A model generated the notes under the pieces. It did no database searches. It saw only the letters and a program-made list of their open reading frames with translations, and had not been told where the DNA came from. Both the position numbers and the translations under genes were made by a program. From Brachycybe producta (taxonomy: Eukaryota > Arthropoda > Diplopoda > Playtdesmida > Andrognathidae), in assembly GCA_036925085.1 (NCBI GenBank), contig JAUPFP010000008.1, forward strand, positions 3,507,957 through 3,571,956: 64,000 nucleotides of DNA, in the 5' to 3' direction. Below, one piece after another: positions 8,601 through 17,600 of this stretch (position 1 is its first letter; every line of letters begins with the position of its first letter).

Positions 8601-11600
8601 TGGCTTACATCTGAGTATTATGAGTGGTGGTATACGATTAGTAAATGAGGATTTATTTGCTTTAACTAATTCAACTAATTAGTCATTTTAGATTACTAAA
8701 ATTTTAGTTTCATGTCTGTCTTCACAACTGTTTTCGTAAAGTTTTCAATTGCATTTTTCAAAATTTTGTGCTAATATTATTATTTCAAATGATGATAATG
8801 TTAAATGAACCTCCTGCAGCTATTATGATTGGTTATGGCTGTATATAATACTAAAAACAAAGCAATTGTTACATGTAGGCCAGGCTACATTAAATAGACA
8901 CCTGTAATATAATGATTCTTTTTAAGGCAATTTGTATGGAATATTTAATTTTCAAAAAAACGCAACAATCAATGAACAAAACAAAAATTAACGTCAATAC
9001 TTTAATTATATTGTATAATGTCAGATACCACTTTACAACTCGGTAGGCCTATAATGTAAATTTCAGCATTTTGTGACGTTAGCAATTTATAATGTAAGAG
9101 GTGAGGGTTGGAACTTCAAATGTTCAACTTTTTACAAACTTTTCTCAAGTGAAAAACTTCGTACAAAAAGGTATTTTTTTATTTCATGTAAGCGGAGATG
9201 TTACAAAGTACAATTGCACTTTTTTATTTTTGATTGAACTTTTAGCAAAAGGATCAAATAAAAACTCCAAAAAGTACTTCTTGTTATGGTGGGGCCACAC
9301 TAACGTTAACGTCTAACGTCCATTATCGCAATAATTAAGGCGTCAAAAATATAGATTAAACTACGCTGTAAATCGCTTTGATGTGTCAAAAAATACCTCC
9401 ACCCGCGCTATCGCCTAACGTCTAACGTCATTAATAATGAAGATAATAACTTAGCGCGTTAAGTCGTGGCTACACCTGTGTTTATTGTCAAATAACGCGA
9501 CAATTAACGGCATTAGACGTTAATGTGGCCCCAGCATTATACAGAAAGGTTAATGTAACAAAGTTGAAAATATTCTACAACTTTGTACTTTTGAGCAAAA
9601 GTTTGCTGATACTTTTTGCTTGCAAGTTTTGAGAGTCACCACGTACTTTTCGACGTTTAAAGGGACATTAAGTTTAGTTAAATTACATCATTTCTTTATT
9701 CAATATTACGTCGGTTAAGAAGTGATACCATGTAACTGACATTTTTGGTGCTTATGAGGTTTTGACATAAAAAGTAAAATCAGAAAAAATAAGTGGCATC
9801 CTTTGGAAAATGTCGCGAAATAAACAAAAATTTATTTTACAAGATATTGACTGGTAGAGACATCTGGTAGAGGGTTGCGATTTTGCAAATATTTAGAAGA
9901 AAAAAATGGTTTGTAATGTCATGTACGTAACAATTATATTAATTATGGCTAAAAAAAAACGTCCAAATAATTTTATTAGCAAAAAATTGTGTAACAAAAC
10001 CTTAAATTTGTATTATGACGTTTTTATTTTTTGCTCTTGTAAAATTTATATTTTGTTAGTTACGTGGTATCACTTCTTAAACGATGATTAGGGTTTCATT
10101 TAGGCTTTCATTTAGTGTTACTAATAATTCATTCCAGTTTCATCCGTATCCTCATCAATCATCATTTACCTCTTGTGTTACCTCTTTGAACCAGTACATG
10201 ATTCAATAATGAATTTCTTTCACTTTTTATCCTTGTTGGGTGGTTAAGGTAGGTGATGGTTGTGATGTTGGTGATTCATATAAACACAACTTCGGATATT
10301 CTCTAGAATATCCAAGTGTGCATTTATTTGTTGCTTCTGGATTAGTGTCGTAGATGACTTTTTGATTCAATAACCTATTTAAATACGAATGGGTTATATA
10401 ATTTAATTGTTCCTAATTCTATTTTTGTGTATGTAGCAAATTCAAATTGAATTTGTATTTGTAATAAATTGTTTGCCATAAAAAAGGTCTTTTACCTTTT
10501 TTTATAACTACAGACGTAAACGTATCGTAATTGGTTTTTGTTTTTCTTGTTGAAACAAGTTGCATAACTGCAGCCAACTGCATAATTTTCACCGGTTGCT
10601 ATCTGTGCCGGTAATAAGTTTCAAATTAAAATATTAAGTTTCATTTACATCATTTTATACATTTCTTTTTACCTGGGCAAATTTGTTGTTGCTTGAAAAC
10701 AGTTGTAATCTGTAAGATTTTCCGAATTTAAAATCTTTGCCTTCAGAAAACCATTCGCGGATTACGTCGGGAAATGTTTGGGACCTAACACTGCAGCTCA
10801 CGACAGTTCCTAGGTTTAAAAAAAAAACAATTGTGACAAAATTTGAATTGGAAAGAAAAATGGGTGAATTTACTTCTGAAACATTTTAGGGTTTTGAAAC
10901 ACACTTCATTGGAAAAATGGTGTAGTTCGGTGAAAAAAAAAGGCTGTAGGTAAAAAGTAGGTAGAATTTGTTTTGTTGAACACTTTTACGGAACACAAAA
11001 TGACATTTAACATCAGAATTTTCTATTTTCATTACATTAAAGGTGCGTTTTGTTCATGCTATAATTAGTTTGATGTTAAATGTAACTTTAATTCTGTAAA
11101 TGTGTTTAATAAAAACAACTTTATCTGGTATGTTAGTGCAAATATTACTAATAAAACTACTCAAATGTACCTATTTCAGTATATCATTCCAAATATATTT
11201 TATTTTACGTGCAAAGAATTTATAAGTTAATAATTAAAATTAAGATTGAATGATTTCTGACATTCTGCATTATATAATTTAAACCAAATGGAATATAGCA
11301 AAACATGTATATATATACAAGGTTTTCATATTTACCTATTTGTTTGAATCGTTGTTTCGGTGAGTTACAGGTGCATTGTTTTGCACGTTCGTCCGAAATT
11401 TCAGCAAGTGAGTCGCTCCAGTCCTATTCACATAACGTTAACTATTAATAATTTAATAAAGGATCATTTTTATACGTATTTAGTGTTGGTAATTTTGCAT
11501 TAAAATATCCAGTATATCTAATATCTGTCTAGTAATGTTCGGTAGAACTTGGAGAAACCCTCTCCACCCCCTCACCCCCTTCCCCCAAAAAACCTGATCG

Positions 11601-14600: not shown

Positions 14601-17600
14601 AATGGCAGTAGTCTCTTTTTATTTATACTTGATTTAAATATGAATTTTTTTAAATAAATTTTTACGCTACATTCACTTGTTTTACCCAAAAGTAATATAA
14701 ATAAAAATAATTGTTATGGCATGTTATCATTTAAATTAAGTGGCAATTGAAAGGTGAGAAAAGTCTACATGTAAAATTAGAAGTGAAATTTGTATAAAAA
14801 AAACAATTAAAAAAGGGCCTCACTACTAAAAAAAATATTATAAAGTTGTGACATCCATATCTTATAACGTGACAGCTTATGATCTATTACTTTATGATTG
14901 TCATGTTTTATAAATTAGTCAGTGACAGTCATAAAGATATGATATACACATATAACAGTATTTGTTTTGACATTTTACTTTTGTGACTGTTAGAAAATTA
15001 TGAACTAGATGTAACAATTTACTATCATAAGACATACACAACCTTTGTGTAATGACTCTCAAGATTTTTTCTGAGTAAAATAAAAATTGGCCGCCATTTT
15101 GCATGTTGGTCTAAATTAATTCTATTGTATTTTACCATTGAAATCATATCGATTATTTTCCAATAAAGACAATGGGTTACACTGGCATTGTTTTGCCACT
15201 AGAGCAGCATCATTGGCCAGTTTATCTTTCCATTGCTATCCATGATTAAATGACAAAAGAAAATCAAATATAAATATAATAATTCTAGAAAATAAGCCGG
15301 ATATTATGTTTTTCTTACCAATTGATACATGAATGTCGCTTTTGGATTTTCATCAAACAGTTTCTCCCTTTTTTCGTTATGTAAACTTACAATCTCAATA
15401 GGGTCAATGACTCCAAAAGATTTGAATTTATATTTCTGTAATAATAAAGGAGTTACTTTACTGTAATTAATACTGTCAGTTTAAGCATTGATTGATCAAC
15501 TTACTGGTTTAAACTTTAGAAATTTGGGAACTTTAATTTTAAGTCCAAATATTGCTTCGTAATTTTTTGAGCAGAGCATCAGTATAAAGATAATAATAAC
15601 TGTTGTTAATCTGCAATATTTAATTTTTTAAAATAATTTTAATAAATGTAAAACCATTTTTAAAAAAATTAATACACGAATTAGTAGAGATGCTTTCAGA
15701 ATTTATTTAATTAAATGCAGGGTGCTAGTGATTTAAATTAAATTAATTTACCGTGTTAATTAAAGCGTTTCATTATTTTGTAATTTTAAAAGCAGAAAAA
15801 TTTTTAAATATTATTGTTTTCTTGCAAATTTTAGTAAAAATTTGAAATTCATCAAAAAACCTCCACTTTGCAATTCGTAACATTACATAATAACTTTCTT
15901 AACGTTCACGCGAAACTCATTTGTAAATTATAAACGTAAAATTTCATTTCAATAAAAAATAATCTGATTTAAATGAGATAAATTGATTTTTTTTTTTGTT
16001 AAAGAAAATCTGAAAACTCAGCCACATTGATTAAAATGAAATTAACATCAATATTAATAAAAAAAATATATTAAGAAAATGTACGTACAGTGACATCGTT
16101 TACCAATGATAAAACCATTGAGCGTTATTACTTCAATGGATTCATTAGATTCAGAAGAACTTTTAGTCGACGTAGAAATTGGTTTTCTACCTTTTGAACA
16201 ACCATAATGACCCTAATCGCAAGTGTTCCAATAATGTAGGAGGGGGAAAACACTTTTGGTTTTGAATGGTTTTCATACAATCATAGTTCCTGGATTTTGT
16301 TCAAAACACTTGTTACCGGGTACCATTTTTTATTATTATACACGTACTACAGTAGTAGACTTTGTGACAATCTCGCTCGCTACCTTTATGTATCTTATCA
16401 CCAGGAAGGATGTACAATTGTACATGTGTTTAACATTAACATTATTTCAGAAAATAATAGTTTTTATTTGTAATTAAGCTTAACCACAATTTGCATGTAG
16501 TTGTTTAATTAGTAACTAACATATACATTAAGTAAGTATAACCTTAGACTATTACCTTCCTGGACTGGCAACTTCCTATCTTCTCAATGTTAAAGCGTTA
16601 AGTGCCTGGTTTAAGGCAAAAGTGAAGCCAGCACCGTCTGGTGGGATTATTTGTACATAAAATCGGAGGGGAAAATCTCGTTTTTGTAAAGGGGAAGACA
16701 TTGGGGGTAATCATGTACTGTATGGCAAGCCATTTTAATTTTTGCATGTTTTACTGGAGTTTCAGATTTTAATTCTATTCTGGGAATTTAGTAAAACTCG
16801 TATAAACGAGTAAAATGGCTTTCCATGTGTACAATCTGCTTGTGAATCTGGGTGAATCTTTGCAAATCTTAGTGAATCTCGTACATGAATTTTTTCTTCA
16901 ATGTCTGCCCCCCCTTGAAATACACCCCTCTATAACTACAAAATGAATTCGTCCTAAACTTGACATCTTCTCTAAATTTCATATACCATAGTCACGCTAG
17001 ACTAGGCGCCCTTTCTAAAGCGACGCCGCATATCAGTCGAACACAAAATTTCGGGAGTTGCCAGTCCAGTAATGTAATAGTCTAAGGTATAACCACATCC
17101 ATCCACCTTGCATGTTGCACACCAAATCAGATAATTCCAGGTTTAGGGAATTTTTAATATTAAATGATTGTTTACCTGGCAGAATAAGTTTAGTGTATTG
17201 TCTGTCACCCATGAAAAATGTCAAAATTACCCTGATAAATCTTGAAAAGGGGGGAAAACTCAATGAAAATTGATTTTTTTTTTTGCTGGGAATATTATAC
17301 CTGAAAATGTTGCCAGCATCAACTTTTAATTTTTTTAAAAGCAATAGTAATATCATATTTATAACCTTGTACATTGGCACGCTTGTTTCTTGGAACGGTT
17401 TACATTCGAGCTTGGTGGAAAATGATGAATTAATGGCTGCTGTCTCTAACCTTCATCTTCATGTTGGCGCGGTTGGTGGGCCTCAATATGTCTGTATAAG
17501 ACTTGTATACAGCTTTAGGTTTGTGTTTATAGTTTGTGTGTGGGCTTAGTAATTTAAGTTATTTGTTGTTTGAAACTAAGAGGAGGTAACTATCTTAGGT

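Follow-up and report, generated by a model that had tools for sequence, protein, structure and literature searches.

A Divergent Pair of Putative CAP-Superfamily Genes Lying Antisense Within a Large Intron of a Predicted Transmembrane-Type Protein Gene in Brachycybe producta

In the window analyzed here, a stretch of 64,000 nucleotides on one contig of the Brachycybe producta genome (JAUPFP010000008.1, contig C8 in our numbering), a divergent CAP gene very probably went through an old local duplication; the resulting pair lies inside a large intron of a gene that encodes a transmembrane-type protein, antisense to it. The sequence suggests a simple order of events. One CAP gene would first have come to lie in the host intron, and a local duplication would have followed long ago, to judge from introns that can no longer be aligned and an amino-acid identity of 43%. 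Both copies would have been kept by purifying selection as independently transcribed genes for secreted, disulphide-bonded CAP proteins. Transcription of the host would run through the CAP genes and remove them with the intron, and special coupling between host and nested genes would be unnecessary.

The arrangement is real but ordinary; genes nested on the opposite strand are well documented, as are CAP genes in tandem, and the general picture is unchanged by this pair. It is nevertheless useful as an annotation catch, since ORF scans readily overlook short-exon genes that lie antisense in introns. With this pair come a divergent CAP branch in which the usual cavity residues are lacking and a nested cluster of two genes that could be of use in comparative studies of duplication among nested genes.

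Gene Structure

CAP gene 1 (15609–13921) and CAP gene 2 (12235–10227) are both on the minus strand and have six exons apiece (Table 1), whose joined frames are open for 261 and 232 codons, respectively, before the stop. GT...AG ends are found in all ten introns (five of five in gene 1), and the intron phases (0, 0, 1, 0, and 2) are identical between the genes at all five introns. Exon lengths are 105, 117, 100, 137, 98, and 229 nt in gene 1 and 75, 144, 88, 137, 107, and 148 nt in gene 2. The original prediction of two six-exon minus-strand models with the same phases and a fourth exon of matched length is confirmed in each of these points; the equality of exon 4 requires that the gene 1 acceptor be the one just before 14507, and an alternative AG would give a longer exon with the phase unchanged. 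When stretches of the host intron were joined at the exon lengths of gene 1 as a random control, none of 20,000 gave an open frame. The first AATAAA past the stop is at 13764 for gene 1 and at 10028 for gene 2, a hexamer that is frequent by chance where DNA is AT-rich.

Both genes had been described as invisible to simple ORF scans. Every exon is indeed shorter than 230 nt, but one 93-codon stop-to-stop frame (14266–14547) covers exon 4 of gene 1.

Table 1. Exons of the two CAP gene models and features of the putative host gene, in positions of the window
Feature	Position	Strand	Remarks
Host exon before large intron	2272..2693	+	acidic, Ser-rich stretch, then transmembrane-like segment
Host intron	2694..33204	+	30,511 nt, GTAAGT...TTTCAG
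Host exon after intron	33205..33367	+	start of presumed cytoplasmic tail
Host probable last exon	39117..40751	+	544 codons + TGA; low-complexity stretches
CAP gene 1 exon 1	15505..15609	-	coding part as modelled; signal-peptide-like; no ATG ahead of that stretch
CAP gene 1 exon 2	15319..15435	-	
CAP gene 1 exon 3	15136..15235	-	
CAP gene 1 exon 4	14371..14507	-	137 nt; alternative start 14543 = 173 nt
CAP gene 1 exon 5	14206..14303	-	
CAP gene 1 exon 6	13921..14149	-	includes stop
CAP gene 2 exon 1	12161..12235	-	ATG at 12235 and signal-peptide-like stretch
CAP gene 2 exon 2	11937..12080	-	
CAP gene 2 exon 3	11336..11423	-	
CAP gene 2 exon 4	10673..10809	-	137 nt
CAP gene 2 exon 5	10496..10602	-	
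CAP gene 2 exon 6	10227..10374	-	includes stop

In gene 1, no in-frame ATG occurs after the upstream in-frame stop and ahead of the signal-like stretch, and the first one downstream falls within the hydrophobic stretch itself. A search of the 1,590 nt upstream of gene 1 for a 5′ exon with an ATG, a GTRAG donor, and the right phase returned no candidates. On this evidence either a 5′ exon would lie further off or use a looser donor, or the start would have been lost, and gene 1 could be on its way to becoming non-functional. The same two results speak for gene 2 being a working nested CAP gene and gene 1 an early pseudogene without a start codon and full signal peptide; we consider this rather unlikely, since all six exons of gene 1 are open, its introns are GT/AG in five of five cases, and its Pfam score is well above the cut-off. 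In addition, an acceptor-like TTGCAG directly before exon 1 is compatible with an upstream exon that has a looser donor or lies farther away. We prefer the reading in which selection would have kept both copies.

Relationship to the CAP Superfamily

The original prediction proposed a search of the joined exons with the Pfam CAP profile (PF00188), and both genes proved to score above its cut-off of 21.1 (36.9 bits, E = 7.6e-9, for gene 1; 41.0 bits, E = 3.9e-10, for gene 2), with nearly full coverage of the profile (positions 2–117 and 3–117, respectively, of 117). CAP is the only Pfam family over its cut-off in either protein; a match of gene 1 to DUF4026_N (E = 0.13) is under the cut-off of that family, and a search of NCBIfam at E 0.1 matched neither of the two proteins. 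Among PDB sequences, the gene 2 protein matched 12 distinct entries at E ≤1, with triflin first (3.2e-7), followed by pseudechetoxin and natrin; VAL4 was also matched. A two-sequence profile matched 13 distinct PDB sequences at E ≤0.1, with Ves v 5 on top (1.1e-9); the last of them, an immunoglobulin (E = 0.0026), was taken as a chance match. Eight cysteines are common to both proteins downstream of the signal region, and two shared cysteines lie C-terminal to the CAP domain. The N-terminus of gene 2, read by eye, is a hydrophobic stretch of the secreted type, so that the predicted secretion stands for gene 2; for gene 1 it would hold only if a start exists. CAP homology is shown by these matches, and the pair are predicted to be divergent, secreted SCP/TAPS, antigen-5-like members of the CAP superfamily.

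The proteins resemble the antigen-5/venom-allergen and CRISP branch of the superfamily in their full-length domain, in the F.Q and GC...YVC.Y segments, in the secreted-type N-terminus (gene 2), and in the C-terminal cysteine pair past the domain. They differ from this branch in that the His and Trp of CAP1 are replaced and the cavity, at the positions presumed for it, is mostly lost, and from the CRISP subfamily, which has a cysteine-rich domain C-terminal to CAP, in having no second domain over the Pfam cut-off and just two shared cysteines past the CAP domain.

The CAP1 signature is of the GHYTQ..W type, which is usual and not obligatory, and the CAP2 signature of the VC.Y type; the usual metal-binding cavity of CAP proteins is formed by two His and two Glu, and the Pfam family does not need it. 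Conserved CAP motifs had been reported for both genes, and this is borne out for CAP2 (YVCSY and YVCVY) and for the F and Q of CAP1, but not for the CAP1 His and Trp, which are absent from both. Gene 1 has NNRFVQIASG as its CAP1 segment and gene 2 has NNKFAQIATG, and neither conforms to the signature; His and Trp do occur there in the snake CRISPs and in Ves v 5. At the aligned positions that we take to correspond to the cavity, one Glu is kept, which follows a conserved Trp (WFSE, WFDE); when the pair is aligned to triflin and Ves v 5, the two His and the other Glu have no counterpart, a loss of three residues out of four. Because of this loss, both proteins would most likely act through a ligand or partner bound on the CAP scaffold rather than through a metal site.

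Duplication and Selection

The prediction that a CAP gene was duplicated locally is supported by the adjacent position of the two genes, their common strand and phases, and a protein identity of 43% (98 of 228 positions; E = 4e-57, calculated for this single comparison), with no comparable match elsewhere in the genome for the gene 2 protein. The duplication appears to be old because corresponding introns no longer align; four of the five pairs are without a blastn match at E 0.01, and the remaining pair has a match of 10 nt (E = 0.009). Retroposition as the origin of the second copy was rejected, since five introns are in the same phases in both copies. Differences over 220 codons amount to 41%, 31%, and 46% at the first, second, and third positions, and estimates of dN and dS for these codons are 0.45 and 1.25 by NG86 and 0.41 and 0.70 by LWL85. 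Such values would fit an old duplication with purifying selection, an estimate that is weak because third-position differences exceed those at the first position only slightly, dS is large, and YN00 gave no result.

A third, decayed CAP copy was suspected by eye between the genes (approximately 12650–12455, minus strand; GYVTLCKG) and was rejected by local alignment: the 12 exon peptides were compared with 13919–12236, each against 300 Markov-resampled controls, and p lay between 0.25 and 0.86 in all 12 cases.

Tandem SCP/TAPS genes are described in PMC7694928: Lucilia cuprina has 16 of them within 53 kb, Drosophila has triplets, and Schistosoma mansoni has a series of four. The pair is like these arrays in consisting of adjacent paralogous CAP genes with similar exon structure; the differences are that there are two copies only, that they are more divergent (43% identity), and that they are nested in an intron.

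The genome (295 Mb in 442 contigs) was searched with the gene 2 protein, exon by exon and for the best candidates only, and no close paralogue was found elsewhere by this search. Of 11 matches at E ≤10, six were gene 2 itself, three were gene 1, and two lay elsewhere; these two were rejected as further paralogues, the translation beside the match on contig C37 (E = 0.30) being a LINE-like frame and that beside the match on contig C69 (E = 4.64) a tandem-repeat array. The long open frame at C37:1850798–1853896 resembles, by eye, the end of a LINE reverse transcriptase polyprotein.

A genome-wide search with the CAP profile scored nine candidates and gave one match at E 0.001, on contig C52. Both genes of the window were missed, which makes this search insensitive to short-exon genes; its tally of CAP genes is a minimum for the genome, with distant members undercounted. 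The matched gene (C52:31296–34703) is a separate, more canonical CAP gene that reads GHYTQLVW and SCGQNIF by eye, so that the genome also holds the usual CAP form. This gene has an apparent intron at the counterpart of the exon 2/3 boundary and a cysteine-rich stretch past the domain (both by eye).

Nesting in the Host Intron

All 12 CAP exons lie inside the intron at 2694–33204, on the strand opposite to the host; the original placement of both genes wholly within this plus-strand intron is exact in its coordinates, and the flanking exons join in frame. Intronic genes are put at about 6% of Drosophila melanogaster genes in PMC3786989, which also gives 2mit in tim2 as a Drosophila protein-coding gene nested on the opposite strand. 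The two cases are alike in having a protein-coding gene in opposite orientation in a host intron and differ in number, with one gene there and two tandem paralogues here. PMC8467205 counts 220 opposite-strand simple nested pairs in human (74.3%) and 193 in mouse (77.8%); it also proposes a purging of same-strand nestings, by which interference is lowered. Among the titles listed by literature searches for nested CAP genes, none concerned this arrangement, which is weak evidence and carries no claim that such genes are unpublished.

The opposite orientation within the host intron raises the question of whether the antisense pair regulates the host by transcriptional interference, and a Drosophila study described in PMC8467205 gives interference as the cause of the fast divergence in expression among nested genes. 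Such regulation seems improbable to us, since that text presents opposite-strand nesting as the usual state and nested genes in mammals as being without raised expression divergence.

An old duplicated pair within one host gene is the reading that we prefer, and the host exons are consistent with it. The transmembrane-like segment of the exon ending at 2693 closes with LLFW, followed by AG/GTAAGT (the slash marks the exon end), and this exon joins in frame to the one starting at 33205, leading from the transmembrane-like segment into a basic stretch. The exon at 39117 joins in frame as well, and the three host exons together make 740 codons with a TGA at 40751. None of the Pfam families matched by the host pieces passes its cut-off (six sub-threshold families in the first piece and one in the second); the best match, DUF3377, is below it (E = 0.0041, 17.5 bits vs. 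26.5). This lack of a Pfam match would suit flanking exons that belong to two different genes, with the CAP genes merely intergenic; the consensus splice ends, the in-frame join at the transmembrane-like segment, and the further in-frame join that extends to a stop make this very improbable. Also very improbable is a lineage-specific CAP pair without canonical cavity residues that was fixed antisense within an intron of a membrane-protein gene and is expressed where the host is not, with the nesting setting the expression pattern.

Other Features of the Window

Ten of the 59 ORFs of the window were compared with Pfam at E 0.01, and none matched; searches of the whole window with Rfam at gathering score and for tRNA likewise found none. 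A 210-codon open frame on the minus strand of the host intron (6316–6948), with further open frames overlapping it on either strand, had no match to Pfam at E 1. Its G+C content is 53%, compared with 31% and 30% in the flanking 2 kb, and it is perhaps an inserted element. The host intron also contains a 600-bp TA-rich tandem array (28387–28992) that is self-complementary, with arms of approximately 300 nt, and pieces of a dispersed repeat (19659–19943 and 31591–32101) in two copies approximately 12 kb apart that are 78–97% alike. At 62052–62638, tandem arrays of 16/32 bp are partly open as a repeated frame on the minus strand (SVWRLF...).
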